Shown here: positions 2 to 32,989 of the stretch, one piece after another | How positions within the stretch are numbered: position 1 is the stretch's first letter | How the letters are laid out: each line of letters opens with the position of its first letter | DNA from: a virus | Length of the DNA stretch: 33,098 nucleotides | Virus record (IMG/VR): IMGVR_UViG_3300033148_004903 | Span: 1 to 33,098 of that record | Direction: 5' to 3' (one strand) | Program-made: the position numbers and the translations under genes | Notes under the pieces: generated by a model | What the model saw: only the letters and a program-made list of their open reading frames with translations | The model's database searches: none | What the model was told of the DNA's origin: nothing

Positions 2-136
2 GTGGGATACGAGTGGGACATTTTGAGGGACATCTCAATGACAGACCGCTATTCACACCTGACCTTGGCCCGCAAAATCCAACAGCAGGAAAGGCTCGCA
101 GATTATTATATGAATGTAATTTTGCAGATGGTTTGA
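2..136 (+). CDS. C-terminal part of host tyrosine recombinase, cut by the prophage
   Basis: This frame is open from the window edge and is the end of an integrase/XerC-type tyrosine recombinase. It reads DISMTDRYSHLTLARK; the tyrosine of RYSHL (codon 50-52) is in the position of the catalytic nucleophile that attacks DNA in this family. The prophage enters after ATGAA at 110-114. Translation now runs into phage DNA, adds VILQMV and stops at TGA 134-136. Before insertion the frame continued at 32990 for 34 more codons. Because the break lies about 20 residues after the tyrosine, the shortened enzyme may still work. The gene itself suggests an older mobile element as the target. The start lies outside the window. 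Confidence 0.8.
   Translation: MGYEWDILRDISMTDRYSHLTLARKIQQQERLADYYMNVILQMV
110..114. repeat. Target site duplication, copy next to the right end
   Basis: ATGAA directly abuts the prophage end TGT at 115 and is repeated exactly at 32985-32989. Five base pairs is the duplication size of Mu-family transposition. Confidence 0.93.
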
Positions 137-141
137 GAAAT
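115..141 (+). repeat. Right-end terminal inverted repeat with transposase site R1
   Basis: The sequence starts TGTAATT and contains the 20-bp site TTTGCAGATGGTTTGAGAAA at 121-140. It pairs with the left end (complement of 32958-32984) with identical spacing from the terminal TGT to the core GCAGRTGGTWTGAGAAAT. This is the expected arrangement of an outermost MuA-type binding site a few bases from the cleavage point. Confidence 0.93.
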
Positions 142-142
142 C

Positions 143-162
143 TTTGCAGATGGTTTGAGAAA
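143..162 (+). repeat. Transposase binding site R2
   Basis: This is an exact second copy of TTTGCAGATGGTTTGAGAAA, 22 bp (about two helical turns) inside R1 and in the same direction. The close R1-R2 pair resembles the right end of Mu. The stop codon of the interrupted recombinase lies inside R1. Confidence 0.9.
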
Positions 163-6568: not shown

Positions 6569-8394
6569 AACCCTGCTGCCCTAAGCTCTGCAAGTATCTG
6601 GCTCCTTCCGTACTTGATCTTTTGCGCGATCGCAGTGTCCAGCTTGTTCGCCATCTGCTCGGACTCTGCCCCGTACACCGTCACGCCCCCCAAATTGATA
6701 ACTACTGATCCCCTCCGACCCAGCCCTGCAAGAAGGCCATGCGTGGGTGTACTAACGGCCCCAATATCCCCTATCAACCCTCGCAAAAGTCGCATCTGAA
6801 GATCATACATTTCAGTGTAGCGCTTTATTTCTGCTGCTGCCCTGCTTCGAAAACCGGGCGTTACCAGCGCGCCTGGGTCCTGAGTAAACCCTAGCTCCTG
6901 GATTTTTCTGGGTAAGGCGGATAGGTTAGCGAATATGTTTGCTATCCCCGCCATATCAAATGTGGCCTTGATTGTTCCACCTATTCTTGCAAGGTCTGCC
7001 TGCATCTCCGCAATGCCGGATGCCCAGGGCTGAGGGGGGCTCTTTTTGATCTGAGGCTCCAGCACAAAGGGGTTCTCTCCCTTCTGGGCGGCCAGGTAGT
7101 TGAAAAACTGTCCTGTGCTTTTCGTGGCTTTATCAACGCTCTTAGCGGTCCCCTCAACCTTAGTGCGTATGCCATCAACCAGATTTTCAAACTCTGCGAA
7201 AGAGCGGTTGACTTTTGCCTGCGTCCTCGCCGTGTTCTCGGCAACCTGATTCCACCTCTGATATGATTCCCGTGCCCCTTCAATCTCTGCAGCGCGCTCC
7301 CTGGTAGTGTACCAGACGCCGCCGCCTACTTTCCCGTAAGCGACCTGCCCGGACTTCCTTCCTATCGCCAAAACCCGCGCTTTTTGGGTTAGGGTCTTAG
7401 TGCGCAACCTGGCAACTGAAGCCGCAGTCTCGGCTACGGTTCCCTGCACGCCCTTTACGATGTTATAAAGAATCCGCACCCCTTTAACCGCTGCCTGAAA
7501 TGCCCTGATTATGGCACCTGCGGTCTTTGCGGCCCACTCTTCCAGCTTCCCGGATTTTGCGAGCTGCTCAATCTTGTCGTTTAGCTCCTTCACTTTCGGC
7601 AGCAGCACCTCCGCGATCTTCACCTTAACTGATGTCGCAAACTTCCCGAACTTTTCTTCCACATCTGAGACCACGTTCCCGAACTGCTTCAGCTTCCCAT
7701 AGTCTGTTTTTGCCAGGGCCTCGGCCTGGCCCTTGACCTGTTGTTCGATCTCTTCAAGAACCCCCAGGAAACCCCTCGCTTTGTAAGTGTCCTGCTCTAC
7801 CGTGATACCCACCCTTCGGAGTTCTCCTGTGAGCCCCATGCTGGCCTTCCCCAGCATGTTGGCTGCCTGCCTCGTATCCCCACCCATCAGGGCGGCCAGG
7901 TCAAGCATCACGGCAGCAGTCCGGGGTAAAAGGTCATCCGTGATGTCCTTGTAGGTGAGCAGGAACTTCATGCCCTCCAGGGTCGCCTCGTCTCCGAAGG
8001 TCGTCACTGCCTGCAGCCCTTTTGCTACCCCGAACAGCTTTTTCTCAAGTTCGGGAGTGTGGCGGCCCATAGATTTCATAGCCTGGATCATCCCTGCCTC
8101 TGCCCTCTCCTGCACCCCTGAAAGCTCTTCCCAGTGGCTGATCAAGCGCCTGAGGCCCCAGCCAACCAGGGCGCCGATAGCAATTGATTTAAGGCTCACG
8201 AGCCTCTTGCCAATGCTCTGGATTCCTTTACCGATCTGCCTCGTCATCTTATCAAACCGCCTCAAGCGGCTCGTGGAGGCGTTGACCATGCGGGTTACTT
8301 CAGATGTCACGGACTTAGTGAACCGCTTCACATCTGCCACCGCGTGGCTCGTGGCCGCCTTTACTATGATCTCTACCTCGTTAGTCCCCGCCAT
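6565..8394 (-). CDS. Tape measure protein
   Basis: This 609-residue protein sets tail length and lies inside the tail tube. It is mainly helical: the N-terminus reads NEVEIIVKAATSHAVADVKRF, a hydrophobic stretch lies around IAIGALVGWGL (near 75), and a TAAVMLDLAALMGGDTRQAA region typical of phage minor tail/tape measure proteins lies near 160-180. The C-terminus carries a short glycine-rich piece (GLGRRGSVVINLGGVTVYG). The ATG at 8394, with GAGG just upstream, is preferred over a TTG eight codons earlier. It overlaps the tail chaperone stop by 14 bases. Tape measures usually give about 1.5 angstrom of tail per residue, so a tail near 90 nm is expected. Confidence 0.85.
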   Translation of the reverse strand: MAGTNEVEIIVKAATSHAVADVKRFTKSVTSEVTRMVNASTSRLRRFDKMTRQIGKGIQSIGKRLVSLKSIAIGALVGWGLRRLISHWEELSGVQERAEAGMIQAMKSMGRHTPELEKKLFGVAKGLQAVTTFGDEATLEGMKFLLTYKDITDDLLPRTAAVMLDLAALMGGDTRQAANMLGKASMGLTGELRRVGITVEQDTYKARGFLGVLEEIEQQVKGQAEALAKTDYGKLKQFGNVVSDVEEKFGKFATSVKVKIAEVLLPKVKELNDKIEQLAKSGKLEEWAAKTAGAIIRAFQAAVKGVRILYNIVKGVQGTVAETAASVARLRTKTLTQKARVLAIGRKSGQVAYGKVGGGVWYTTRERAAEIEGARESYQRWNQVAENTARTQAKVNRSFAEFENLVDGIRTKVEGTAKSVDKATKSTGQFFNYLAAQKGENPFVLEPQIKKSPPQPWASGIAEMQADLARIGGTIKATFDMAGIANIFANLSALPRKIQELGFTQDPGALVTPGFRSRAAAEIKRYTEMYDLQMRLLRGLIGDIGAVSTPTHGLLAGLGRRGSVVINLGGVTVYGAESEQMANKLDTAIAQKIKYGRSQILAELRAAGL

Positions 8395-8987: not shown

Positions 8988-9914
8988 TTACGTAAAGGCA
9001 ATGCTGATCTCGTCATCCCCTGAATCGCGCCTGAGCACGCAGTCCATTTCGTAGATTGCCATCCCCCTGCGCTCTCCCTGGCCCAGCTTCACATACTGGA
9101 CCTTCGGGGCAGTGATCGTGCAGATGTTGCCTTCTGTTGCGCCCAGCGTGGCAGTGAAGGCAACCAGCGCGCCGCTCTCCCAGTCGTCCCAGAAATCCTG
9201 GGTCGCGATAAGCACATCCTCCGGGTTCAGGCTCATGGTCATCAGCCGCTTGCTGAGAACCGCCGACAGATACCCCTGGGCCGCGTTCACGCTCTCGCGC
9301 AGCTCCACCGTGTTCCCTGTCGCTATCGTGATCGCTTCTACAATGGCGGAGTAGGAGTCAATCTGGAAACTGGCGTTCTGGAAAGGCTGTGCGCGCGTGC
9401 TATGATAGCTCACACCGGATAGCAGGCTCGTGTCGCTATCCGCAATGGCAGTCCCCAGGAAGTCAAAGGCGATGATCCCCGGCTTTCCTGCAGCGAGCCG
9501 AATCTCAAAGTTTCCCCTGGCTCCTGCCATCAGGTACCGCTTCCCGTCCACGTACTTTGCAATGGTAAGGGACGGGATGCTGTCAGACGCTGGGTCATAG
9601 GTCACGCTTGTGCCCCCGACAATCGTTTCCTCGAACCCGCACGCCCTGATCAGCTTTCCGATCTCAGGCGGGGTGCCTGCTGTACCTGATCCCTTCAGCT
9701 CGCACTCAAAGGTCATCCTCGCCATCCTGCCCCCGGCTGCCCCTGCAAACGGGCTGAGGCTGGAACTTTGAAGGTCAAGCTCTTCAACCTCAATGTCAGG
9801 GTCATAGGTGACCGCCCTGGCAAGCACCGCGTCAGTCGCAGACAGTGTCTCGGCTGTGCCCTCCGTGCTCTCCACTTTGGCCGCCAGTTGTGACCGTGCT
9901 TCAAGTAGTGGCAT
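8988..9914 (-). CDS. Major tail tube protein
   Basis: This 308-residue protein precedes the tail chaperones. It begins MPLLEARSQLAAKVESTEGT, a start common in siphophage tube proteins, and continues with alternating beta strands and a motif of the type ARMTFECELKGSGTAGTPPE (about 67-86). It would form the hexameric rings of the tail tube. It has a strong GGAGGTAATAGGAA leader before the ATG, as suits a gene made in many copies. There is no sheath gene, so the tail is non-contractile. Confidence 0.85.
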   Translation of the reverse strand: MPLLEARSQLAAKVESTEGTAETLSATDAVLARAVTYDPDIEVEELDLQSSSLSPFAGAAGGRMARMTFECELKGSGTAGTPPEIGKLIRACGFEETIVGGTSVTYDPASDSIPSLTIAKYVDGKRYLMAGARGNFEIRLAAGKPGIIAFDFLGTAIADSDTSLLSGVSYHSTRAQPFQNASFQIDSYSAIVEAITIATGNTVELRESVNAAQGYLSAVLSKRLMTMSLNPEDVLIATQDFWDDWESGALVAFTATLGATEGNICTITAPKVQYVKLGQGERRGMAIYEMDCVLRRDSGDDEISIAFT

Positions 9915-9933
9915 TTCCTATTACCTCCCTTTT

Positions 9934-10371
9934 TTAAGGCGTTCCATACTCGTACTGGTAAAATATGCTCCACCTAAATTCCAGGATTCCGAACGGCTGA
10001 AGCCATCCTTCGTCCGTCTCGATTTTAAGCGGAATCGTGTTCACCGCGTACCCCCCTCTTGTGTGGTCGGCACACAGTGCTTTCTCAATGTCCTCCAAGA
10101 GGTTGTTCAGCTTCTGGCTCGTGTCGCTCTGGTCGTGCTCGTAGGCACGGATAACGACCTCCAAGGTGCTGTCAACCATGATGTTACTCCCGTACACCTT
10201 ACTTTCCGCGCCGTCCATGACGAACACTTGAGGAAACTCGCTGCACTCCTCCCAGTGCTTGAGCGTGCGGCTTACGCGGCCGGAAAGGTCATAGTTGTAG
10301 CCGTTCGCGGTTGAAACCGCCTCAAGAGTGCTAATCACATTTGAAATAATATTTTCCCTGATGCTGCTCAT
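9934..10371 (-). CDS. Tail completion / tail terminator protein
   Basis: A 145-residue protein in the slot of the gpU-like tail terminator, between the HK97 gp10-like protein and the tail tube. It starts with a helix (SSIRENIISNVISTLEAV), then strands FPQVFVMDG and DSTLEVVIRAYEHDQ, a helix LNNLLEDIEKALCAD, and a final strand LEFRWSIFYQYEYG, the pattern of the small alpha/beta fold of tail terminators. It probably caps the tail for joining to the head. It overlaps the upstream gene by ATGA. Confidence 0.72.
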   Translation of the reverse strand: MSSIRENIISNVISTLEAVSTANGYNYDLSGRVSRTLKHWEECSEFPQVFVMDGAESKVYGSNIMVDSTLEVVIRAYEHDQSDTSQKLNNLLEDIEKALCADHTRGGYAVNTIPLKIETDEGWLQPFGILEFRWSIFYQYEYGTP

Positions 10372-10829
10372 AACTTTCCGAACGCTGTTTCGATCTCCTT
10401 GCCGATGGCCTTAGATATGGCCTCCAGGCTGTCCATGATCGCAGGCCTCAAAAATGGCCGTGCCGGCATTACCACGCGCTTTGCGCTCCTCCAGCCCACA
10501 CCCGGGATCTGGAACCTGAGCACTTTCGCTCTCTTCGGCGTGATCACTCCCCCTTTTTCATGTATTCTGGCATAGAGCACATTTGTGCCAATTCTCCCCT
10601 CCACCTCATCGCCGCGTATAACTGTCTGGCTCCTGATTGACCGGCGCAGATGCCCTGTTCGCACGCCCAGTCTTTCGGGCCTAGGTCCTGAAAGATACTC
10701 CCTTTTCGCCGTGCCCACAGCCAGGTCAAGTCCCTTGGTCATGCCCTTGAAAACAGCAGGTACCACCAAACCCGGCATCTTGTTGAGCATGCTTTTCGCT
10801 TTGTCGGATACTTTTAGTTCCAGGATCAT
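10368..10829 (-). CDS. HK97 gp10-like head-tail protein
   Basis: This 153-residue protein matches the HK97 gp10/Mu G-like (virion morphogenesis) type: an N-terminal helix, then the signature VRTGHLRRSIRSQ near 56-68, VLYARIHEKGGVITPK near 84-100, and the end region MPARPFLRPAIMDSLEAI. Proteins of this type act in head completion or the joining of heads to tails. The ATG overlaps the connector stop (ATGA). Confidence 0.85.
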   Translation of the reverse strand: MILELKVSDKAKSMLNKMPGLVVPAVFKGMTKGLDLAVGTAKREYLSGPRPERLGVRTGHLRRSIRSQTVIRGDEVEGRIGTNVLYARIHEKGGVITPKRAKVLRFQIPGVGWRSAKRVVMPARPFLRPAIMDSLEAISKAIGKEIETAFGKL

Positions 10830-20386: not shown

Positions 20387-20956
20387 TTAGCGCCCTCCTC
20401 GAATCGCACTGATGGCCCCTGCAATTAGGCCCGGGCTCTGCTCGCCCGCCTTTGTGCGTTTTTCTTTGCCTCTGTGATATGCGCTTACCCCCAGGATGGA
20501 GAGCCATCCCACCCATACCCACTGGGGAACCTGCGGGACGGTTACCCGCAGCAGGGGTAAAACGAAATATATGCACATGACAGCCAGCGGGAACGAAAAG
20601 CCGTTGAAAGGCCTCCAGCTGTACTGGGGCCAGTGCTCGCTCCTGGCCTCTTCGCGCATGGTCGCGTTGACCTCGCGGATCGCGCCCAGATCGCGCTCCG
20701 CCTCCACCTGCACGCGTTTTAAGGCCAGCTCCTGCAAAGTCTCCTCGTGCTTGAGCTCCAGCTCGCGCAACTTCACGGCCGCGTCCGGGTTAGCCTCTAT
20801 TTTCTCGTAGATGTCCTTCGGAACGTCTGCTTCGGCCCCAACTGCCCTGGCTACCATAGCGCCAAGCGTTGCGCCGCCAGGGCCCCCCAGGGTGCCTCCC
20901 AGGAGCGGCGCGCCAAGCTCAATTATTTTCTTGCCCAGATCCTCCCAGTCCATCAC
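20387..20956 (-). CDS. 3TM holin
   Basis: This 189-residue protein matches the three-membrane-helix holin type. It begins with a glycine-rich amphipathic region (IIELGAPLLGGTLGGPGGAT), then a long charged helix, then membrane segments around WRPFNGFSFPLAVMCIYFVL and VWVGWLSILGVSAYH. It would open the inner membrane to let the lysozyme out. The start is GTG at 20956 or the adjacent ATG at 20953, overlapping the preceding stop. Confidence 0.85.
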   Translation of the reverse strand: MMDWEDLGKKIIELGAPLLGGTLGGPGGATLGAMVARAVGAEADVPKDIYEKIEANPDAAVKLRELELKHEETLQELALKRVQVEAERDLGAIREVNATMREEARSEHWPQYSWRPFNGFSFPLAVMCIYFVLPLLRVTVPQVPQWVWVGWLSILGVSAYHRGKEKRTKAGEQSPGLIAGAISAIRGGR

Positions 20957-21261
20957 CCAAGTCTCCTTATGACCGAAAAGTTATTCACCAAAATAATGGC
21001 ATAGTACCCGCAGAGCACCAGTAGCAGCACGGTGACATATACGTCGTATGGCGCGGGCACAAAAAGAACCAGCAGCATGATCAAAGCGAGCGCTATGAAT
21101 TTCACGAGCCCCAGGGCTCCTCCGGTGCCAAGCCTGCCCATGAGGCGGCGCATAAAGGGGTTAAGCTCTCTGCCGCCGCGGCTTATCGCCTCAATCGTGG
21201 TGACGATGTCCGCTATGTTCAGCACCACCAGCTCGAGAAATAGCCACGCATTCACCGTCAT
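20953..21261 (-). CDS. DUF5658-like small membrane protein in the lysis region
   Basis: This gene encodes 102 residues with three hydrophobic segments and the motif NIADIVTTIEAISRGGRELN followed by PFM, typical of DUF5658 membrane proteins. The start at 21261 is chosen because GGAGGG lies just upstream; an ATG six codons earlier has no site. Between lysozyme and holin, it could be an antiholin or second holin (inference). Confidence 0.75.
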   Translation of the reverse strand: MTVNAWLFLELVVLNIADIVTTIEAISRGGRELNPFMRRLMGRLGTGGALGLVKFIALALIMLLVLFVPAPYDVYVTVLLLVLCGYYAIILVNNFSVIRRLG

Positions 21262-21279
21262 GTCGCTCCCTCCTTTCAT

Positions 21280-21335
21280 GAAACTAGATACTTGAGATTA
21301 GTTTCTAGTCTCCAGTTTCTGATCTCCAGTCTCCG
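21280..21335. repeat. CTAGTCTCTAGT-type short repeats at the lysozyme end
   Basis: Short direct variants (AAACTAG, TTTCTAGTCTCCAG, TTTCTGATCTCCAGTCTCC) run through the lysozyme/DUF5658 intergenic space and the last lysozyme codons. They are related to the arms at 22539-22570 and 22724-22755. Confidence 0.7.
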
Positions 21336-21742
21336 GTTCGCATTATGCGGGCCAGCTCCTTTGCCCTATCTCCCGTCTGCTTTGCAAAGCGAGAGTCCAG
21401 GATCTGAGTTGCCGCTTCCTCGAAATCTTTTCTCACCAGCGCTGCCGACATTTTTTTGAAGCCCAGGGTACGCCGCAGGCCCATACAGTAGACCATGTCT
21501 ATCAGCACTGCCTGGCGAGGTTCGTTGCAATTGTGCCAGCCCGGTATTTGGGATGCCTCACGCCGCGCAATCGTGATCTTCGCAAGCAGCAGGGCTTCCG
21601 CCTCCTCGGGGTTGATTCCGTATACGAACCAGTGGTCCAGGTTGAACCCATAGCCTATTGTGAGTATCCCGAGGCTGTCCTTGTATGCGTACCTGCGAAA
21701 ACCCTCGTGCCGCTTGATCATCTCTTTGAGCTTACCGTTCAT
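21305..21742 (-). CDS. T4-type lysozyme (endolysin, GH24)
   Basis: This 145-residue enzyme would cleave the peptidoglycan sugar backbone. The catalytic triad is placed as in T4 lysozyme: E13 (RHEGFR), D22 (YKDS) and T28 (ILTIGYGFN). The usual later region is present (CNEPRQAVLIDMVYCMG). There is no signal peptide, so release should depend on the holin. The last codons (TGDWRSETGD) and the TAG stop are built from the CTAGTCTC repeat family, suggesting that repeat growth changed the C-terminus. Confidence 0.93.
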   Translation of the reverse strand: MNGKLKEMIKRHEGFRRYAYKDSLGILTIGYGFNLDHWFVYGINPEEAEALLLAKITIARREASQIPGWHNCNEPRQAVLIDMVYCMGLRRTLGFKKMSAALVRKDFEEAATQILDSRFAKQTGDRAKELARIMRTGDWRSETGD

Positions 21743-21745
21743 TTG

Positions 21746-21895
21746 CTAATTCATGAAAAGGACTATCGAGAGCCACCCGATTGTGACAATGTTGGCCGGC
21801 ACAGGCATTCCTCCGCTCGTGGGCGCGTACAGCGCCTTCAGCTCGCGCCTTGTGTCCGCCTTCTCGGGTTTCTTCCTTCGCAAAAAACCGAGCAT
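21746..21895 (-). CDS. 49-residue small membrane protein, first late gene
   Basis: The ATG at 21895 has GGAG six bases upstream and lies directly after the terminator. The peptide is basic at the N-terminus (MLGFLRRKKPEKADTRREL) and hydrophobic at the C-terminus (ANIVTIGWLSIVLFMN), a small-membrane-protein layout that fits a lysis accessory. Longer starts would run back through the terminator. It ends four bases before the lysozyme gene. Confidence 0.55.
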   Translation of the reverse strand: MLGFLRRKKPEKADTRRELKALYAPTSGGMPVPANIVTIGWLSIVLFMN

Positions 21896-21908
21896 GCCTT
21901 GCTCCGAT

Positions 21909-21974
21909 AAAAAAAGCCCACACATTGCCAAAGGCCCTGCCCATCTGGGCCTTTTTAACAGCAACATGTGGGCT
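21909..21974 (-). terminator. Nested stem-loop terminator between early and late blocks
   Basis: On the minus strand an outer stem AGCCCACA/TGTGGGCT (21967-21974 with 21915-21922) encloses an inner stem AAAGGCCC/GGGCCTTT (21930-21937 with 21947-21954) and is followed by a run of seven T. This is a strong intrinsic terminator for the early transcript. The inner stem with its T run could also work on the plus strand. Confidence 0.85.
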
Positions 21975-21983
21975 GATTTACAA

Positions 21984-22027
21984 GGCGGGACCGCCCGCCC
22001 CAAAAACAACTTAAAATATTATTTTAA
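21984..22027. promoter_or_regulatory. GC hairpin and 17-bp AT palindrome upstream of the late block
   Basis: GGCGGG/CCCGCC (21984-21999, loop ACCG) is followed by the perfect palindrome TTAAAAT-ATT-ATTTTAA (22011-22027). The palindrome is a candidate operator for late control, and the region is AT-rich enough for a promoter. The 159 bases between genes at 21896-22054 hold no gene. Confidence 0.45.
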
Positions 22028-22054
22028 ATACTTTATACTTTTCCAGGTTTTAAA

Positions 22055-22261
22055 TCAAGTCTTCCTGAGTTCTTCTATTCTGTAGACCATCACCCTCGTT
22101 CGGCGCCTTCTTTGCCCCTCCTCGACCCAGATCCATTGATCCATCAAAACCTTTGCGTATGGAGGGTATAGGACCTTGACCCGTGCCCTCCCGCCCGGCG
22201 TCTTAACCCAGTCCCCCACTTTTATTTTCATTCCTTCCTTCACTTCGCGGCTTTTCATCAT
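22055..22261 (-). CDS. Small SH3-like phage protein
   Basis: A 68-residue basic protein with a short beta-barrel-like pattern (KIKVGDWVKTPGGRARVKVL, then AKVLMDQWIWVEE, RVMVYRIEEL). It resembles small SH3-like proteins of phage early regions; no function is known to me. It is the last gene before the terminator and overlaps its upstream neighbour as ATGA. Confidence 0.7.
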   Translation of the reverse strand: MMKSREVKEGMKIKVGDWVKTPGGRARVKVLYPPYAKVLMDQWIWVEEGQRRRRTRVMVYRIEELRKT

Positions 22262-22494
22262 CTTCCATCTTTCTGCCCAAAGCTCATTGCTAGGAGCTGA
22301 GCATCCGGGAAAGAAAGCCGGACACAGCCCTGCCTCGCTAAATCCACTGCCATCCTTTTTGCTTCTTCCTCTGATACGGCTTCTACATCAACCTCACCTT
22401 TTAAAGCCAAAAGGTATACATGCACATGGTATTTCATTTTTTGCGGCTTTGGCGGAGATGTCGGGATTTTCAAGTTTGGATTATCCGCGACCAC
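22258..22494 (-). CDS. Hypothetical protein with a near-perfect ribosome site
   Basis: This gene encodes 78 residues with a GTG start. AAAGGAGGTGAT, almost the full anti-16S sequence, lies four bases before the GTG and decides this start over an internal ATG at 22437. The core (YHVHVYLLALKGEVDVEAVS, then EEEAKRMAVDLARQ) is a small alpha/beta fold. The function is unknown. Such a strong site suggests high expression or independent translation after the upstream noncoding gap. Confidence 0.7.
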   Translation of the reverse strand: MVADNPNLKIPTSPPKPQKMKYHVHVYLLALKGEVDVEAVSEEEAKRMAVDLARQGCVRLSFPDAQLLAMSFGQKDGR

Positions 22495-22538
22495 GCTATC
22501 ACCTCCTTTCCCCTTAATTCAGTGCGGCAGCACGCTTT

Positions 22539-22570
22539 CTAGTCTCTAGTCTCTAGTTTCCAGTTTCTAG
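22539..22570 (+). repeat. CTAGTCTCTAGT-type repeat arm (left)
   Basis: A 32-bp block of overlapping CTAGTCTC, CTAGTTTC and CAGTTTCTAG units. It is imperfectly inverted relative to 22724-22755, and the two arms enclose about 150 bp. Confidence 0.8.
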
Positions 22571-22693
22571 AACGGCCCCTCCCTGCAACCTCCGGGCATC
22601 GGCACCATGCCCGAAATTCCCAGGGACAAACCGGTGCGGCATTACTTTCCTTTTCCCATCACTTTGATCCCTTCTATTGCCTATGTTTTTCAT
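22553..22693 (-). CDS. Possible 46-residue small protein between repeat arms
   Basis: An ATG at 22693 with AGAGG five bases upstream opens a 46-codon frame (begins MKNIGNRRDQSDGKRKVMPH) that is basic and glycine-rich. Its stop TAG is formed by the CTAG repeat. No family is recognised. A 7-bp stem CGGGCAT/ATGCCCG (22593-22613) lies inside. The frame could be chance; otherwise this 290-bp gap holds no gene. Confidence 0.3.
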   Translation of the reverse strand: MKNIGNRRDQSDGKRKVMPHRFVPGNFGHGADARRLQGGAVLETGN

Positions 22694-22723
22694 CTGCCTC
22701 TCTGCCGCCCGGCTAGGGCCGAC

Positions 22724-22755
22724 CTAGAAACTAGAGACTAGAAGCCAGAAACTAG
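22724..22755 (-). repeat. CTAGTCTCTAGT-type repeat arm (right)
   Basis: A 32-bp block reading CTAGAAACTAGAGACTAG and onward on the plus strand, the inverted counterpart of 22539-22570. The arms are too degenerate to be insertion-sequence ends, and there is no transposase between them. Confidence 0.8.
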
Positions 22756-22786
22756 AATTTCGAAATCTGGTCTTTAGCCTCAGGCA

Positions 22787-23335
22787 TCACTCAATCCCTT
22801 TTCCGATAAGGCCGGCCAGGCTCTCAACGCCCGCGCGCCGCTTGAACTCCTCTGCGCTCATCGCTCGTCCGTCCACCGTCATCTGTCGCCCGTCTGCGGT
22901 CATCGGTCGCCCACGCAACCTCTCCTCCCTTTGCTTCTGCTCCCGCTCAGCCGCGTCCCTGGCTTCTTTCCTCTCCCGCTCACTGATCCCGATCATGACC
23001 TTCTTGAGGTAGTTATGGTTCTCAAGGGGCTGCTCGAAATGCTTGTTGCATACAATGCGCAATGCCTCCCAAATGCCCGGCTCGCTGATGTGATACTCCC
23101 TCCGCTGGTAGCGAAACGAGCCGGTCCGGAGCAGGAGAGCCACGTCCTGGAGCAGCCTTAGGATCTTCTTCCCTTTCATGCGCAGAGGCAAAACGCCAAA
23201 AAGCTCCACGTACTCGAATGCAAGCCTGGCGTGGGACCCAAACACGGGGAGCAGCCTGATAATCTCGCCCCACTCCATGTCCATCATGGCCTCCTGGCCA
23301 TCGAATTGCCTACCACAATGTGGACACCTGATCAT
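22787..23335 (-). CDS. Hypothetical early protein with CxxC start and repeat insert
   Basis: The 182-residue protein begins with one zinc-knuckle half (CPHCGRQF), then a helical domain (about 15-110) with LLPVFGSHARLAFEYVELFG and SEPGIWEALRIVCNKHFEQP, then a charged coil. At about 142-160 it has a repetitive stretch, RPMTADGRQMTVDGRAMSAE, encoded by short direct DNA repeats (22857-22912). The function is unknown; the helical core could bind DNA or a partner. It overlaps the upstream gene as ATGA. Confidence 0.75.
   Translation of the reverse strand: MIRCPHCGRQFDGQEAMMDMEWGEIIRLLPVFGSHARLAFEYVELFGVLPLRMKGKKILRLLQDVALLLRTGSFRYQRREYHISEPGIWEALRIVCNKHFEQPLENHNYLKKVMIGISERERKEARDAAEREQKQREERLRGRPMTADGRQMTVDGRAMSAEEFKRRAGVESLAGLIGKGIE
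22857..22912 (-). repeat. Short in-frame direct repeats
   Basis: Imperfect units of the type GTCATCNGTCGCC and CGTCNRCGGTC follow one another and encode (R)-M-(T/S)-A/V-(D/E)-G-R repeats without breaking the frame. Confidence 0.6.
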
Positions 23336-23529
23336 AAATCTTCCCCGTATATGCGGGCATCTTCGCGCTTTAGAATCTTCTTTATGTGTCCGAAATATAC
23401 CTTCTTGCTCTCAGGCGGTGCGATCCACATCTCAATCCACGCACCATGCGTATCGCCACATGCAGGGCACATATCGTGCTCATAGACTTCATCACAATTC
23501 GGGCACCATTTCGCATCACTTAGTTTCAT
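23332..23529 (-). CDS. Small zinc-ribbon protein
   Basis: This gene encodes 65 residues with a full zinc-ribbon: CPNCDEVY (C9, C12) and CPACGDTHG (C21, C24). The rest (WIAPPESKKVYFGHIKKILK) has no family I recognise. It overlaps the MazG-like stop as ATGA. Confidence 0.72.
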   Translation of the reverse strand: MKLSDAKWCPNCDEVYEHDMCPACGDTHGAWIEMWIAPPESKKVYFGHIKKILKREDARIYGEDL

Positions 23530-23813
23530 TTTAGTCTGCTCCTTAGCCTTCTCAGTTTTGATTTTTTAATATACAAATACTCCTCATCACTCACCCCGAG
23601 GATGACCTTCAGCTGCTGTAACATTATGTCAACATCGGCCATCTCCTCGATGATGTCATGCCTCATGGCCACTAAACTATCATCTCTTCGCCGCTTGAGT
23701 TTGCAGATGGCGAAAATAAGCTCCGATGCTTCCTCTATCGCCATATCCAGCTGGAAGCTTGCTCCCCACCTCCTGACCGCGGCGTTGAATAACTCTCTTT
23801 CCCTTAATTTCAT
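23526..23813 (-). CDS. MazG-like nucleotide pyrophosphohydrolase
   Basis: This 95-residue all-helical protein has the MazG-type metal-binding pattern: E27, E28 and E31 in IEEASEL, and E56, E57 and D60 in IIEEMADVD. Members hydrolyse NTPs or dNTPs to monophosphates. In phages they may clear damaged nucleotides or affect the host starvation alarm. GAGGGG lies about 10 bases before the ATG, inside the upstream gene. Confidence 0.82.
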   Translation of the reverse strand: MKLRERELFNAAVRRWGASFQLDMAIEEASELIFAICKLKRRRDDSLVAMRHDIIEEMADVDIMLQQLKVILGVSDEEYLYIKKSKLRRLRSRLK

Positions 23814-23934
23814 GTTTCATTCCCCTCAGGGCCTTATCCATGCACCTCGGGCAGATCCCGTGCGTGACCTTGCCGGGGGTGGGGCCGCCTCGCCCTCCCA
23901 GGTCCTTACCACACCACGCACAGACTGCTTTCAT
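23680..23934 (-). CDS. Small zinc-binding protein overlapping MazG
   Basis: This gene encodes 84 residues. The first 40 contain CAWCGKDLGG and THGICPRCMDKAL, a clear four-cysteine zinc site. The last 45 residues come from DNA that also encodes MazG in another frame (overlap 134 bases) and are low in recognisable features. Either the zinc protein really has this tail, or a stop was lost by mutation. Its start overlaps the upstream gene as ATGA. Confidence 0.65.
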   Translation of the reverse strand: MKAVCAWCGKDLGGRGGPTPGKVTHGICPRCMDKALRGMKHEIKGKRVIQRRGQEVGSKLPAGYGDRGSIGAYFRHLQTQAAKR

Positions 23935-24431
23935 AGCGACTCCAGTGAAGATCTAATCTGCTCCGCAGTCTCCGCACCGACCGCCAGACCACGCTCAATC
24001 TTGCTAAGAGTTGATTGCTGTTGCCCGATGAGCCGGGCCAGGCCTTCCTGGCTGAGGCCCAGCTTTCCCCTCTTCTGCTTGATGGCTTGTGCGAGTCCGG
24101 GCAATACCACAGCCGGTTGGCGCGTCCGCTCCTGTGCAGGCACCGGCCTATAATGCCTGGCCCCCGGCCTTGTCCTCCGAGGGGGCGTTGGAGGCAGCAT
24201 GCCCGTGAGCTCCTGGTAAATTTCCCGGCCCTGGCCGCACCTGATACACGCCTCGAAGCGCACAAGCTCCGCTGTCGGCCCACGGCTATACAGGCACCTG
24301 GCATCCCTGATTGCCTCCTCTATTGCGCGGTTCTGGCGCTGCACGCAGCGGATCTTCAGCATGGTGCACCTGAAACGCTCGCATTCAAAAAACTCACCAT
24401 CTGCTGCTACCAAATGTTGCGGTCTAGCCAC
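23931..24431 (-). CDS. Zinc-finger plus XRE helix-turn-helix regulator
   Basis: This 166-residue protein has two parts. Residues 1-70 have a cysteine cluster (FECERFRCTMLKIRC, then FEACIRCGQG) suited to zinc. Residues about 110-160 are a Cro/XRE-type helix-turn-helix (KRGKLGLSQEGLARLIGQQQ, STLSKIERGL). A proline-rich linker (about 78-105) joins them. In the middle of the early operon it is the best candidate here for a regulator of the late switch, since no Mor/C-type activator is seen. Confidence 0.75.
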   Translation of the reverse strand: MARPQHLVAADGEFFECERFRCTMLKIRCVQRQNRAIEEAIRDARCLYSRGPTAELVRFEACIRCGQGREIYQELTGMLPPTPPRRTRPGARHYRPVPAQERTRQPAVVLPGLAQAIKQKRGKLGLSQEGLARLIGQQQSTLSKIERGLAVGAETAEQIRSSLESL

Positions 24432-24625
24432 TTGACCGCCTCCTCGAACGCTTCCTCGTATCCCTCGCCAATCCTCTGGTACAAGGCCTTTTGCATATCT
24501 TCCGGAAGCGCCTTAAAACACCGATAACAAAATGAATAGTGTCTTTTTTTGGATCTTCCGCATAAACACTCCTCGCTCATTAACTCATCTGCGTACCATT
24601 GCCATTCTTTCTGCGCGGTGCTCAT
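24407..24625 (-). CDS. Small cysteine-motif phage protein
   Basis: This gene encodes 72 residues containing CLCGRSKKRHYSFCYRCFKA (C20, C22, C33, C36), a compact zinc site, followed by an acidic helix ending AVKWLDRNIW. Such proteins are seen in phage early regions without known function. It overlaps its neighbours (ATGA at the start, 25 bases at the end). Confidence 0.72.
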   Translation of the reverse strand: MSTAQKEWQWYADELMSEECLCGRSKKRHYSFCYRCFKALPEDMQKALYQRIGEGYEEAFEEAVKWLDRNIW

Positions 24626-24879
24626 TTTCCTCTTCCGTTTTTAGGGGCAAGCACGCTAACAGCCCGGCCCTTGAACTCGTCAATTTTCACGATCACCTGG
24701 AGTTCCGGGTCCCAGTAAATGCCCAGCTGCTTGAATGGCTTGCCCTCCGGCGTCATCAGCACTCTCGGCTTTAGGACAATGACTCCGTACTGCATGATGC
24801 CCTGTACCAGCTCAGGGCTTGGCTCGTTTCCGACCCTTGCCCTCCAGTTCTCTATGAAGTGCTTGCTCAGCGTTATCAC
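24622..24879 (-). CDS. Hypothetical protein, possibly DUF4258-like
   Basis: This gene encodes 85 residues with a GTG start directly after the previous TAG (TAGGTG). It begins LSKHFIENWRARVG, recalling the HxxERxxxR start of DUF4258/RelE-like small proteins, then VIVLKPRVLMTPEG and the strand LQVIVKIDEFKGRAVSVL. The relation is weak and no function is claimed. Confidence 0.62.
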   Translation of the reverse strand: MITLSKHFIENWRARVGNEPSPELVQGIMQYGVIVLKPRVLMTPEGKPFKQLGIYWDPELQVIVKIDEFKGRAVSVLAPKNGRGK

Positions 24880-25158
24880 CTAGCTCACCAGGTCGATTGT
24901 CAGGATCTTCTCGTACCCCACGAATGTGCGCTTCCCGTAGCGCTGCCCTATTACGATGCCTTCCTCCGTTACCTGCAGCAGCCGCACGTGCTTTAACTGG
25001 ATAAAGTTTTTCTCCAGGTTGACATTGACGAAATGCCCTACCCATTTGGTGAGATAATCCCAGGAGCCCGCAGTTGCCATGCTCGCGCTCATCATGGTCA
25101 TGCTCATGGCCAAGACTAGCAAAGCTCCCAGGATCACCACCTTTTTGCCTTTTTTCAT
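24880..25158 (-). CDS. Small exported or membrane-anchored protein
   Basis: This gene encodes 92 residues. Residues 1-30 form a signal-type segment (MKKGKKVVILGALLVLAMSM with the likely cut site SMATAG). The rest is a small beta domain (FVNVNLEKNFIQLKHVRLLQ, then GIVIGQRYGKRTFVGYEKIL) like an SH3/LSm fold. The start at 25158 overlaps the gemA stop as ATGA; an earlier ATG is in the gemA shadow. A periplasmic product in the early operon could affect superinfection or the envelope (inference). Confidence 0.7.
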   Translation of the reverse strand: MKKGKKVVILGALLVLAMSMTMMSASMATAGSWDYLTKWVGHFVNVNLEKNFIQLKHVRLLQVTEEGIVIGQRYGKRTFVGYEKILTIDLVS

Positions 25159-25670
25159 CTTTGCCCCCCGCTTGTTTTCCTGACATAATAGTTCCCGCAG
25201 CCCTTCCGGTCTGCGCGGTACTTGACGTACTGAAGAAGCCTTCTGAGCTCTGAGTCCTTGAGCCAGCGGGGATCGTCCACCTTGAACATGCGCCAGCAAA
25301 GGCCCCTGAGCGATTTCTCCCGGTAGCCCATCTCGCACCAGATGGCGTAGAGCATGCGGATCTGGGGATCGCCCTCGAGCCGGTATTCATACTCGATGTC
25401 TTCATCCCCCTTTTTCCAGCCGGAGATCTCCGCGGGCACAGCAGGAGCGAATATCCTCATTCCCTGCTGCTGGAGGTGAATGATCAGGGCGTGCCTCTCC
25501 CCCAGGGTGAGCTCGCTAAGGCCCCCGACCTCTCTTCCCGCGATCTCTGAGGCGAGCTTGCACCAGACCTCCTTGCTGTCGGAGTAGGGCAGCCCGCACT
25601 TTGAAAATGCCCTGTGCAGCAAGGTGTTCTGCCGCCTGTAGATGTCAGATGCTTTCCTGTGCTTGCGCAT
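25155..25670 (-). CDS. gemA: GemA-like protein (Mu gp16 family)
   Basis: The 171-residue protein has the gp16/GemA layout: DIYRRQNTLLHRAFSKCGL at the N-terminus, LTLGERHALIIHLQQQG in the middle, and the C-terminal block IRMLYAIWCEMGYREKSLRG followed by LRRLLQYVKYRA. In Mu, GemA affects host gene expression and DNA supercoiling. The ATG has no clear ribosome site; the bases in front of it are instead a copy of the transposase end site (25673-25691). Confidence 0.83.
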   Translation of the reverse strand: MRKHRKASDIYRRQNTLLHRAFSKCGLPYSDSKEVWCKLASEIAGREVGGLSELTLGERHALIIHLQQQGMRIFAPAVPAEISGWKKGDEDIEYEYRLEGDPQIRMLYAIWCEMGYREKSLRGLCWRMFKVDDPRWLKDSELRRLLQYVKYRADRKGCGNYYVRKTSGGQR

Positions 25671-25672
25671 TT

Positions 25673-25691
25673 TTTCTCAAACCATTTGCAA
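25673..25691 (-). repeat. Internal copy of the transposase end site
   Basis: On the minus strand TTGCAAATGGTTTGAGAAA matches the R1/R2 site at 18 of 19 positions. It lies 7.3 kb from the left end, between gam and gemA, only two bases before the gemA ATG, and points in the same direction as the left-end sites. Confidence 0.85.
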
Positions 25692-25696
25692 GAATC

Positions 25697-26140
25697 TCAG
25701 GTTTTCAGCTCGTAGTTGAACTGCTCGACCAGCTTTTTCCTCGCCCCGATCACTGCCAGCTTCTCATCAGGCCATTTCTCGATAATGGGGCGGTTGATTT
25801 GCTCGACCACCTTGATGCCCTCGAGCCAGCCCTGCTCCTTGATTTTGCCGAGCGCATCCCTCGGGATCTGCACTTTCTTCTGCTTGGTGAAAAGGAGCAC
25901 TCCATGCGGGAGAATGGCCTTATCCTCTCCCTGGAAAAGCTCAACCCTCTCCTTTTTTGCCAGGGCCTTGAGCTCCTTTTCCCCGGACTCGATCAATGCT
26001 TCCAGGTTGCTGATCTCCTCATGGTATTTCTCGCGCACGCGCGCCAGCTCTGCCTCAGCATCCTCCTGCACCATCTGAAGCGAGACCTTGAAGTTAATCA
26101 AATCCCAGAGAATGGCATCAGCTTTCTTACGCGGCGTCAT
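25697..26140 (-). CDS. gam: Gam-like host-nuclease inhibitor
   Basis: This 147-residue protein is of the Mu Gam family, which binds DNA ends and protects them from host nucleases. The N-terminal half is a coiled coil (about 15-65). Then comes the family beta/helix region LPHGVLLFTKQKKVQIPRDA (about 78-97) and the end EKLAVIGARKKLVEQFNYEL. It is shorter than many homologues but has both conserved parts. GGAGAG precedes the ATG; it overlaps the upstream gene by 14 bases. Confidence 0.9.
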   Translation of the reverse strand: MTPRKKADAILWDLINFKVSLQMVQEDAEAELARVREKYHEEISNLEALIESGEKELKALAKKERVELFQGEDKAILPHGVLLFTKQKKVQIPRDALGKIKEQGWLEGIKVVEQINRPIIEKWPDEKLAVIGARKKLVEQFNYELKT

Positions 26141-26519
26141 CGCGTCTCTCCTGCAGCTCCATCTCCAGCTGGCCCACTATTTTAGGCAGGGCCAGTTTTT
26201 TCAACCTGCTCACCAGCAACAGCCCTCTCCTTGACGAGCTGAGGATTCTGGAGCAATACTCCTCCAGCTCTGAGCCTGCCCGCACCAGGTAGTATCCCCC
26301 GCCTGTCTGAGACGAGGTGGACCCGATCGGGATACCCTTGAGACGCTGGGTAGTGATCAGCTTACGGATATCCCGCGTGTCGTTGATCTTGTGGCGTACC
26401 TTCTTGCCGAACACGCGCTCGTAGAGCTCGTCCATGCCAATGGCATTTTCCTTGCCAACGTGCTCAGAGAGCGTTTCCATCAGCCTCGCCCTTGCTTCTT
26501 CATTGCTGATCTTTTCCAT
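26127..26519 (-). CDS. Winged-helix early protein
   Basis: This gene encodes 130 residues with KKVRHKINDTRDIRKLITTQ followed by LKGIPIGSTSSQTGGGYYLV, a winged-helix pattern common to small phage proteins that bind DNA near replication genes. The C-terminal half is helical. Between the MuB-type gene and gam it may help replication or regulation. It overlaps both neighbours. Confidence 0.75.
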   Translation of the reverse strand: MEKISNEEARARLMETLSEHVGKENAIGMDELYERVFGKKVRHKINDTRDIRKLITTQRLKGIPIGSTSSQTGGGYYLVRAGSELEEYCSRILSSSRRGLLLVSRLKKLALPKIVGQLEMELQERRDDAA

Positions 26520-26967
26520 GCGCCTTCCTCGATCTTTTCAAGTTTTTGCTCTTATATGAAGTTATCGGTGTCTCCGGGCCCGGATCATTCACCAGCTGCC
26601 AGTAACCCCGCGCCCTTTTGTCCTGCCGGATGTAGCCCAGCCTGTAAAATGCGTGAATGTACTCGGCCACCGTCGGCCTGCTTGCTCCTGAGAGCCGCTC
26701 GATCTCGGCAACCGTAAATTGCCTGTGAGAGCGGACCAGGTGCCACACAATATCGAGCTTTGTACGCTTCCGCTCCTTTCCCCGGTACACATAGAGGTCT
26801 TTGTCCAGCCTGATGATTTCGCCTGCCTTGCAAAGCCCTCTTAACTCCTGGCGCGCCCTTGCAGCTTCCTGGTAGCTCTGAACCTTGAGGGCGTTTAAGA
26901 GCTCGTCCTTCTTGAACCTGCCGAACCTCCTTGCCGCCTCGCGTACCCTGGGCCTGATTCCCTTCAT
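26500..26967 (-). CDS. Double winged-helix DNA-binding protein
   Basis: This gene encodes 155 residues with two helix-turn-helix parts. Residues about 15-65 read FKKDELLNALKVQSYQEAAR and end with a wing (EIIRLDKDLYVYRG). Residues about 70-120 read FTVAEIERLSGASRPTVAEY and a wing (GYIRQDKRARGYWQL). The C-terminus is basic. It overlaps the MuB-type gene by ATGA, which suggests a partner role in transposition or its control. No specific family is claimed. Confidence 0.77.
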   Translation of the reverse strand: MKGIRPRVREAARRFGRFKKDELLNALKVQSYQEAARARQELRGLCKAGEIIRLDKDLYVYRGKERKRTKLDIVWHLVRSHRQFTVAEIERLSGASRPTVAEYIHAFYRLGYIRQDKRARGYWQLVNDPGPETPITSYKSKNLKRSRKAHGKDQQ

Positions 26968-27662
26968 TTGCCCCGAAGCCCCCTCTTGATGGCCAGCTTG
27001 ACCATGTCATCACTGATCTTGCTGGCTTTGTTTACCTCGGCCAGCTCCTCGAGCGTCCTCACGTCCCTGGAAACCAGCCGGAAATCCCCGTCGGATGCTT
27101 CCCTGAGAATCTCGGCCTGGTTCGCGCTGAGCGAAAGCCCTGCAGCCTGCTTGGCGAAAAACAAAATGTCCTGCGCCTGGATGGGGCCGAATTCAACGCT
27201 CCTGAGAGTTCTGGACCAGGCGCGCCGCTCTTTCTGCATCTTTCGCACCACCAGTCTTTCCCCGATCAACGCAAACGGCACGAACGTGATGTCTGCCAGG
27301 TCCCTGATCCACTCCAGAAGCCCTTCACTCAGCTTGTCAGCCTCGTCTATCAGGATCGGCCGGGGTTCCCGGTAGAGCTTCATCTTGATAGCTTCAAATG
27401 CCAGCTTTTTGCGGTGTGGAACCGGATCGATCATCAGCTCAAAGCAGATATCCTGGAGCATCCAGAGCTCCGTCCACCCTTTGAGCGCCCGGACGTATGT
27501 CCAGCCCTCCTGGGCCGCAAAAAACCTGGCAGCCGATGTCTTTCCTCTCCCTGCCTGGCCCCAGAAAGCCAGGAGCACCGGCTCTCCCGACACCTTGTCC
27601 GCATCCCTCATGGCAGAGATGAAGTTCTTGACATTTGCAGTGTGCACAAAAACATTTTTCAT
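26964..27662 (-). CDS. MuB-type AAA ATPase, target-choice protein
   Basis: This 232-residue ATPase has Walker A GQAGRGKT (35-42), Walker B PILIDEAD (D106, E107) and the later LIGERLVVRKMQ and RTLRSVEFGP regions of the MuB/IstB-like AAA group. MuB coats target DNA and stimulates the transposase, and keeps the phage from inserting into itself. The ATG at 27662 overlaps the transposase stop as ATGA with GAGGGAAG upstream; the longer frame to 27704 has no support. Confidence 0.92.
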   Translation of the reverse strand: MKNVFVHTANVKNFISAMRDADKVSGEPVLLAFWGQAGRGKTSAARFFAAQEGWTYVRALKGWTELWMLQDICFELMIDPVPHRKKLAFEAIKMKLYREPRPILIDEADKLSEGLLEWIRDLADITFVPFALIGERLVVRKMQKERRAWSRTLRSVEFGPIQAQDILFFAKQAAGLSLSANQAEILREASDGDFRLVSRDVRTLEELAEVNKASKISDDMVKLAIKRGLRGK

Positions 27663-29779
27663 GATCGGCTTCCCTCCTCTTGCTCCTCCGGCCCCGCGAG
27701 CCATAACTCCTGCAATGACTCGAAGCGCGGTTTTAACTGCCTGAAGGTCTTTGTTTTCTCGAAATATCTCATGAACTGCATGTCATCGAGCGAAAGCTCC
27801 TCGCCCCTGCATTCCCGCTCAAGCAGGGCCTCGTAACGGTCCGGCTCAGACATGTAGACCGGCTCTTGCTTCTTGGGCTTCAGCTCCAGCACCTTCATCC
27901 TGGAGGCCTCCGCCTCTATCCTCTCCGCTTCCGCCCTGGCGAGCGCCCGAGGCTTTTTCTTTCGCCCAGGTCCCTCTTTAGCTCTTTCAGGTATGGCAAC
28001 CAGCGAAGGGGCCGACTCGACATATGATCTGGCTACTGTTTCTGTGGTTTTTTGAAGCTTCCTTTTCCGCTCGATGCCCATCTTGACCAGGGCCAGGTCC
28101 TCTTTTTGGCCGGTCAGCTTTGCCATTGGATGAACAGGTTCCACTGCTTCGGCCTCACACAGAAGCCTGCTTCCTTTTTGCTCATACACATAGATGCGGG
28201 AGAGGTCCTCGAGGTCGTAGCGGATCATAACCCGCTCCTTGTATCCATACAGGGCCTCGTCATAGTAATTGCGCCCCATGAACCGGATGCCGTTTCGGCC
28301 TGGCGGCGCTTTCGGTTCCATGCTCATCATCAGGAACCTGAGCGCCCGCTCGTCCACACCCGGGCCTTTGCCTGCCTCCCATACCTCTATCGGGCAGAGG
28401 CCCTTGAGGCCCCGGTGCGGCCGCCTGGCATACTCCGCCACCCAGCCTGCTATGATCCTGTTGGCCTCCTCAATGGTAGGTACCCAGCCCCCGTATTTTT
28501 TCTCGTGAATCTTTTTGTGTAGTCTCTCGTTTCGGAGCATGTGGGCCGGCTTGTCCTGGATGGATGCACCCGTATAGGTGGGCATGAGTCGCTCTAGCTC
28601 GTTGAAAGTGCCGAAAAACCGCTCGACCGGCTTGCTCTGCGCATTGTAGGGCCAGGCAAATGTCGTCTCTATTCCAAGCCGGGCGAACATCCCGTAAAAC
28701 CCGGCCTCCTCGAAATCAATGTCCGTGCTCGTAAAAATCTTGGCCTTGAAGGCCTTGCCGTTATCCAGATATGCCACTTTCGGCATCTTCCCGAGCGCCA
28801 GGATCGCGCGTCGAAGCCCGGCGGCCACGCACTGAACGTTCTCCGTTGGCATAATCTCCCAGCCTGCCGGCATGCACGATGCCCAGTCATACCACATCAG
28901 GAGCGATGCCCTGCAGGGCTTGCCTGTATATGGATTCAGGCACTGGAAATTCAGCGGATGCCCGTCTGCCACGAGCACTTCCCCCACCTCCAGCAGACCC
29001 GCGTCTCTTTCAAGATAAGGCAGGCACTTGTCGTTTAGCGCCTTTTCCCCCTCCCGGCAAAAGACCCACTGGTCATAATGCGTGGCCTTCCAATCCTCAA
29101 GCGCCCGCCGAAGCGTGGCTTCCGAGGAAGGAGAAGGGACCTGCCGCTTGCGTAGCGCCAGCTTTGTTAGCCGGCACACCTCCGAGATGCGCAGCCGGTT
29201 TGGGTGAAGCGCAAATGAGAGAAGCATATTGAACTCCTGGTCAGTGACCTTGCGCTTCCCGCGGTTGTTCCCCCACATGGGCGCAATCTTCGTGAAATCA
29301 TGGTCCTTGCGCTGGAGCTCCTTTCTCCAGCGCTCAACGCTTTTCCAGGATGTGGGCCCCAGGATCTCATATACCCGCGGCATCAGGTTGCCCGTGTTAT
29401 ATCCCTTGATGAAAAGCTCGGCAGCCCTCACCGCGGACCCCCCCGCTGCCTTTGCCCGCTTCTTTTCAGCCACGTATGCTCGGACCAGGTCGGCCCTGGC
29501 CAGGGCGATCCTGTTCTGCCACTCGCTTAGCTCCGGTGACCCCACCGCCACCCTCCTATCCTTATTATATAGGTCGGGTGCGCCGGTCTTTGCCCTGTTC
29601 ACCATGACCGCGATCTTCACTTCCTCCGGCAATTCCGCCAGATGAAACCTCTTGTCTCCTCTTCCGTTTACTTTCTGGGCTCTCCAGCTTTCTTTTTTCG
29701 CCCGCTTGTGCACCGCCCTAACACTTATCCTTAAGCACTCAGCGATCTCCGCTGGTGCAACCAAGTCATAACCGTTCAT
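27659..29779 (-). CDS. MuA-type DDE transposase
   Basis: This 706-residue transposase makes the DNA cuts and joins for integration and replication. Residues 1-60 are a winged helix like the MuA N-terminus (LVAPAEIAECLRISVRAVHK). The catalytic core has D272 (VADGHPLNF), D339 (AYLDNGKAF) and E386 (SKPVERFFGTF), almost the same positions as D269, D336 and E392 in MuA. A Mu-type C-terminal beta domain follows (about 480-560), then a basic helical tail that in Mu binds the B protein. AAAAGGAG precedes the ATG. Its sites are the repeats at both ends. Confidence 0.96.
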   Translation of the reverse strand: MNGYDLVAPAEIAECLRISVRAVHKRAKKESWRAQKVNGRGDKRFHLAELPEEVKIAVMVNRAKTGAPDLYNKDRRVAVGSPELSEWQNRIALARADLVRAYVAEKKRAKAAGGSAVRAAELFIKGYNTGNLMPRVYEILGPTSWKSVERWRKELQRKDHDFTKIAPMWGNNRGKRKVTDQEFNMLLSFALHPNRLRISEVCRLTKLALRKRQVPSPSSEATLRRALEDWKATHYDQWVFCREGEKALNDKCLPYLERDAGLLEVGEVLVADGHPLNFQCLNPYTGKPCRASLLMWYDWASCMPAGWEIMPTENVQCVAAGLRRAILALGKMPKVAYLDNGKAFKAKIFTSTDIDFEEAGFYGMFARLGIETTFAWPYNAQSKPVERFFGTFNELERLMPTYTGASIQDKPAHMLRNERLHKKIHEKKYGGWVPTIEEANRIIAGWVAEYARRPHRGLKGLCPIEVWEAGKGPGVDERALRFLMMSMEPKAPPGRNGIRFMGRNYYDEALYGYKERVMIRYDLEDLSRIYVYEQKGSRLLCEAEAVEPVHPMAKLTGQKEDLALVKMGIERKRKLQKTTETVARSYVESAPSLVAIPERAKEGPGRKKKPRALARAEAERIEAEASRMKVLELKPKKQEPVYMSEPDRYEALLERECRGEELSLDDMQFMRYFEKTKTFRQLKPRFESLQELWLAGPEEQEEGSRS

Positions 29780-32808: not shown

Positions 32809-32828
32809 TTTCTCAAACTAGCTGCAAA
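32809..32828 (-). repeat. Transposase binding site L3
   Basis: The complement reads TTTGCAGCTAGTTTGAGAAA, 18 of 20 matches to R1/R2. Confidence 0.85.
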
Positions 32829-32960: not shown

Positions 32961-32984
32961 TCTCATACCACCTGCCAGTCAACA
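32958..32984 (-). repeat. Left-end terminal inverted repeat with transposase site L1
   Basis: Read on the minus strand from 32984 it begins TGTTGACTGGCAGGTGGTAT and ends GAGAAAT, matching the right end at 20 of 27 positions with no gaps. Confidence 0.93.
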
Positions 32985-32989
32985 ATGAA
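32985..32989. repeat. Target site duplication, copy next to the left end
   Basis: ATGAA directly follows the terminal ACA of the prophage (32982-32984) and matches 110-114. Collapsing the two copies restores the recombinase reading frame. Confidence 0.93.

Follow-up and report, generated by a model that had tools for sequence, protein, structure and literature searches.

Why should a transposable phage carry, directly ahead of gemA and far from either terminus, a sequence of the kind found at its ends? The question is raised by the window, the whole 33,098-nucleotide stretch of viral DNA analysed here (IMG/VR record IMGVR_UViG_3300033148_004903), in which a reading made from the letters alone (the sequence-only reading) had pointed to such a site. 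GemA is one of the few proteins common to transposable phages, and its function is unknown. Our answer is that the phage's own transposase A very probably binds, and does not cleave, this internal locus, a conserved site of the inner end-site type that is retained throughout one group of Mu-like phages close to gemA, where the early region finishes.

The prophage, its ends and its early genes

We found that the window from 115 to 32984 is a Mu-like prophage, read backwards. Its limits were exact (32,870 bp), because both 5′ ends read TGT and are flanked by the 5-bp target duplication ATGAA. The element has the features by which Mu-type phages are recognised, namely a MuA-type transposase, a B ATPase, Gam and GemA, together with 5′-TG ends, arrayed end sites and the 5-bp target duplication. 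The ends are made up as follows.

110..114, target-site duplication ATGAA on the right side, perfect 5-bp copy
115..117, plus strand, right terminus TGT
122..140, plus strand, right-end site R1
144..162, plus strand, right-end site R2, identical to R1 and 22 bp from it
32809..32827, minus strand, inner left-end site TTGCAGCTAGTTTGAGAAA
32851..32859, minus strand, left-end half site TTTGAGAAA
32959..32977, minus strand, outer left-end site L1 TGGCAGGTGGTATGAGAAA, seven bases inside the terminal TGT
32982..32984, read on the minus strand, left terminus TGT
32985..32989, target-site duplication ATGAA on the left side, perfect 5-bp copy

The prophage splits a host open reading frame whose final stretch resembles a tyrosine recombinase C-terminus and whose short piece has no Pfam match.

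The early genes lie on the minus strand and run leftwards in the order regulator, transposase A, ATPase B, HTH gene, phrog_2113 gene, gam and gemA. Those that matter for the site are listed here.

27659..29779, minus strand, transposase A (phrog_310, E=1e-110; Pfam HTH_Tnp_Mu_1, rve and Mu-transpos_C; matches MuA 4fcy)
26964..27704, minus strand, transposition ATPase B (phrog_296, E=5e-41)
26127..26519, minus strand, phrog_2113-family gene, longer relatives of which contain the internal site within their coding sequence
25697..26140, minus strand, gam (PF07352, E=9e-20), which stops just upstream of the internal site
25155..25670, minus strand, gemA (PF06252, E=7e-10), with its ATG at 25670, 2 nt past the internal site

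Transposase A has in addition an I-alpha-like match (PF02316), and the nearest isolate transposase is 26% identical to it. When ten open reading frames downstream of gemA (window 20387-25150) were tested for a Mor/C-type late activator, none gave a Mor match; an HTH_3 gene after gemA, at 23931-24431, is a possible stand-in for such an activator.

An end-type site between gam and gemA

Only 26 bp separate the stop of gam from the ATG of gemA, and the site in question takes up most of this gap.

25673..25691, minus strand, internal end-type transposase site TTGCAAATGGTTTGAGAAA, matching the phage's own ends and both kept and co-varying in relatives

The position given in the sequence-only reading was exact, and the distance of about 7 kb inside the phage came to 7.29 kb from the left terminus (32984). 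The site differs by one base from both right-end sites (18/19) and by three bases from the inner left-end site, and its orientation is that of the left-end sites, as had been described. The claim that such a match exceeds chance in 33 kb was borne out, with zero matches to the site at three or fewer mismatches in 100 dinucleotide shuffles of the window. Furthermore, with a matrix derived solely from the ends of this phage, the internal site scored 27.8. The weakest real end site reached 26.9 and the next interior position 12.3, and 60 shuffles gave at best 21.6. Across the whole 3.64-Mb genome it was the sole perfect match, the best ones outside the prophage having two mismatches; other near matches in the host genome were set aside as lacking phage context. 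That the site replaces the usual ribosome site of gemA is a fair description, because it fills the gap and leaves GAG, five bases before the ATG, as the only possible Shine-Dalgarno core. We found no promoter-like match between the site and gemA in the window.

Retention of the site in relatives

Relatives were gathered by transposase homology, blind to the internal site, and were searched with a matrix scan, with a matrix-free repeat search that compared the region before A with the region after A, and with an own-end motif follow-up. A weakness of the scan is that its matrix drew on sites in the window and in pattern hits, among them two internal sites. The matrix-free search avoids this; it returned the internal site as the best pair in L008, L062, L063, L064, L070 and L077. 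Altogether, an internal end-type site was present in 15 of 15 homology-selected phages whose own left-end sites are on the contig (the window, L008, L060, L061, L062, L063, L064, L066, L067, L069, L070, L073, L074, L075 and L077). All of these sites lie 6-13 kb from the left end in the left-end orientation, usually one per genome, and the weakest, in L061, has four mismatches to its own inner left-end site. The sequence-only reading had let its proposal hang on whether relatives with the same end sites keep the internal one, and every assessable relative has it, co-varying with its own ends.

A sixteenth phage, L013, found by pattern, has an internal site too. Both L065 and L092 also carry one, with no left-end site recognised on their contigs. 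The transposases of L013 (24% identical to the window's) and L092 (about 24%) are distant; L013 nonetheless shares the end sequence, and the internal site is the same in both. No internal site was found in L071 or L076, the left ends of which are off the contig. The relatives with distant transposases, L078-L097, say nothing about absence, because most have no convincing left end on the contig; among them only L092 has a clear internal site.

Several further arrangements were seen. In L021, the ends of which are off the contig, the exact site is kept at 4347-4365 in a phrog_2113-family gene, and the open reading frame at the transposase position (6007-7620) has no tblastn match to the window's A. 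In L028 a perfect TTGCAGATGGTTTGAGAAA stands at 80-98, two bases ahead of the ATG of an apparent structural gene, from which some relatives may carry a second internal site in the late region. In L074, gemA is partly duplicated in tandem at 9457-10406 (on a contig shared with L032 1-647) with an end-type site before each copy, and a third end-type site lies at 15109. The ends themselves vary as well. The inner left-end sites of L061, L067, L069 and L070 form a divergent (inverted) pair about 40-50 bp apart, where the window has a direct array, and the left-end terminal triplet is TAT and not TGT in L060, L013, L061, L064, L067, L070, L073, L075 and L077. TA ends in transposable phages have been described as unusual in Leptospira (PMC8705779).

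Co-variation with the ends and constraint on the DNA

The internal site followed the sequence of the ends of its own phage. End and internal copies are identical in L070 (TTGCAGATAGTTGGAGAAA) and in L077 (GCAGGAGAGATGAGAATGG), CAATCTGAGAAA is common to both places in L063 and TTGCATTTA in L008, and L064 has TTGCATCTAATTTGAGAAA at its left end and TTGCATCTACTTTGAGAAT inside. Over 13 phages the internal site agreed with the own left-end site at 17.18 of 19 positions, compared with 15.26 after permutation, and 0 of 20,000 permutations were as high when kinship was ignored. Such co-variation would not be expected of a site that is not read by the same transposase, and from it, together with the sequence identity, we infer that A binds the internal site.

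In nine relatives the site falls within the coding sequence of the longer phrog_2113-family gene, where it reads in frame as FADGLRK. Among these nine, codons were identical in 93% of the cases in which residues agree at the site, versus 45% elsewhere and 67% in the highest other stretch of equal length. The residues in turn follow the ends, with S for A in L060 and L062 (ends read TTTC) and ST for DG in L064 (ends read TCTA). In L070 the phrog_2113-family gene is without the site, which lies instead about 255 bp after gemA. On the transposase tree, at least four changes occur between placement in the phrog_2113-family gene and placement elsewhere; L008, with the site in the gap, and L064, with it in coding sequence, form a sister pair (support 99/98). 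The genomic address of the site changes and the site itself is retained.

Position relative to gemA and lack of a cleavage signal

The median distance between the site and gemA was 267 bp in 18 phages versus about 2,060 bp for random places after A, with 0 of 2,000 as low when kinship was ignored. In 17 of the 18 the site is within about 1.3 kb of gemA, the full range running from direct contact to 2 kb; in the window, L041, L073 and L077 it abuts or overlaps the start of the gene. gemA is not always behind the site, because in five phages (L061, L067, L069, L070 and L075) the site comes after it, which weakened control of gemA alone as an explanation. The site marks the gemA neighbourhood, toward the end of the early region, and not one promoter.

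A functional end has a terminal T[A/G]T at the cleavage position, and this triplet was found seven bases outside the outermost left site in 11 of 13 phages with a candidate site. At the internal sites it was present in none of 18 (GAG in the window, TGA at one L074 copy). Because the terminal triplet is missing, the internal site appears to be of the non-cleavable inner type and should be bound and not cut. This makes a relic end or a shorter mobile element less likely.

Possible functions

Of the roles proposed in the sequence-only reading, control by the transposase and an enhancer-like function are now the two leading explanations, and the remnant end is disfavoured. The mechanism that we tentatively favour is transposase-dependent control of the step from the early genes to gemA and the genes after it. 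Three features speak for it: the association with gemA, an orientation that always follows the sense of transcription, and the missing cleavage signal. Abundant A would occupy the internal site and, once there, would hinder transcription from the transposition genes into gemA and later genes, or would modulate it by forming a loop with the left-end sites. Replication of the phage would then titrate A across the new copies, emptying the site and releasing the switch, and the phage would thereby read its own ratio of transposase to ends. We infer this consequence for transcription; since no promoter-like match separates the site from gemA, the site is more likely to act on transcripts that arrive from upstream than to be the operator of a promoter nearby. 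Against the mechanism we counted the five phages with the site after gemA, the varying distance and the lack of a recognised Mor-type gene downstream in the window. A broader proposal, which we put forward as a possibility with more reserve, is that the transposase doubles as a site-specific regulator of the phage that encodes it: through a single dedicated, non-cleavable end-type site near gemA, the phage would sense the ratio of transposase to replicated ends and so time the early-to-late switch.

A different role, somewhat doubtful to us and yet nearly as likely as the switch, is that of a third site for transpososome assembly, built from an end-type site and acting like the Mu enhancer in a synapsis of left end, enhancer and right end that would serve as a topological filter against wrong end pairs. 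It draws this standing from the orientation and the left-hand position (6-13 kb), which are constant where the neighbouring gene is not, and it would also suit the single site per genome and the inner-type, non-cleavable sequence. Mu itself requires a third cis site, closer to its left end, which protects against mispairing of ends (PMC3562280). However, the Mu enhancer is bound by another domain, I-alpha, whereas this site has the sequence of the ends; the I-alpha-like match of A could serve a separate enhancer, and an assembly role does not predict the tie to gemA.

We consider it unlikely that the site confers immunity, that is, that A bound there strips the B ATPase from nearby DNA and shields the early region against self-insertion. 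A would be drawn to an end-type site, and in Mu, MuA near the ends clears MuB from adjacent DNA (PMC2837660); but the Mu interior is protected by a different mechanism and chromatin immunoprecipitation located MuA at the ends only (PMC2837660). Moreover, immunity does not predict a constant orientation, and a single site leaves most of the genome uncovered.

Far less probable still is that the site is what remains of a left end, and that a shorter element (25.7 kb, from the site to the right end) moved or could move from it. The sequence-only reading had raised this for a stretch at 25.7-33 kb, and the left-end orientation and near-identity with the right-end sites would suit it. The evidence speaks against the proposal, since T[A/G]T is absent from all 18 internal sites, the site stands singly with no array, it is maintained across the group with co-variation, often within constrained coding sequence, and the short element would be without A and B. 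The phages with the internal site make up an unstudied Mu-like family, in which it seems to have been kept for control or assembly and does not look like the leftover of an end.

We give almost no weight to chance, a gemA translation signal or a conserved peptide unlinked to the transposase, to which the GAG before gemA and the coding position in nine relatives might have pointed: shuffles, own-end matrix scores and co-variation permutations reject chance, and frozen synonymous codons, residues that track the ends and the same 19 bp in intergenic and coding versions reject a coding or translation constraint.

Comparison with known systems

Mu serves as the model for replicative transposition. 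That a whole group of Mu-like phages keeps an additional, uncleavable end-type site near gemA suggests either a second enhancer design or a direct link from the transposase to the early/late switch. Co-variation with the ends offers a ready way to seek such sites in other transposon families. Applied to Mu, KS10, RcapMu, BalMu-1 and Aussie, the same end-to-interior pipeline recovered the known or expected sites of these five phages and no interior site that exceeded chance; phiRTG5, MP29 and B3 were left out as negatives because the de novo end-motif search recovered no reliable ends. In the open literature that we searched, no description of a comparable internal site was found.

Like the site described here, the Mu enhancer (the internal activation sequence, O1-O2) is a cis site for the transposase that lies inside the genome, on its left side, and keeps a constant orientation to the left end. 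It lies about 1 kb from that end, between the repressor and the early genes, whereas the present site is 6-13 kb away, downstream of A and B and near gemA. The enhancer is also distinct in sequence from the ends, and the internal site shares neither this property nor that place. With the MuA sites L1-L3 and R1-R3 it has in common the sequence class and the expected binding domain, and it resembles the inner, uncut members of those arrays; unlike them, it stands alone, far inside the genome and without the terminal dinucleotide. In Tn7-type elements, TnsB sites bind the transposase and double as operators of the transposon's own genes. These are likewise transposase-binding sites placed where transcription can be affected, but there the operator is within the mobile end, whereas here it would be a separate site, about 7 kb away and free of the cleavage signal.
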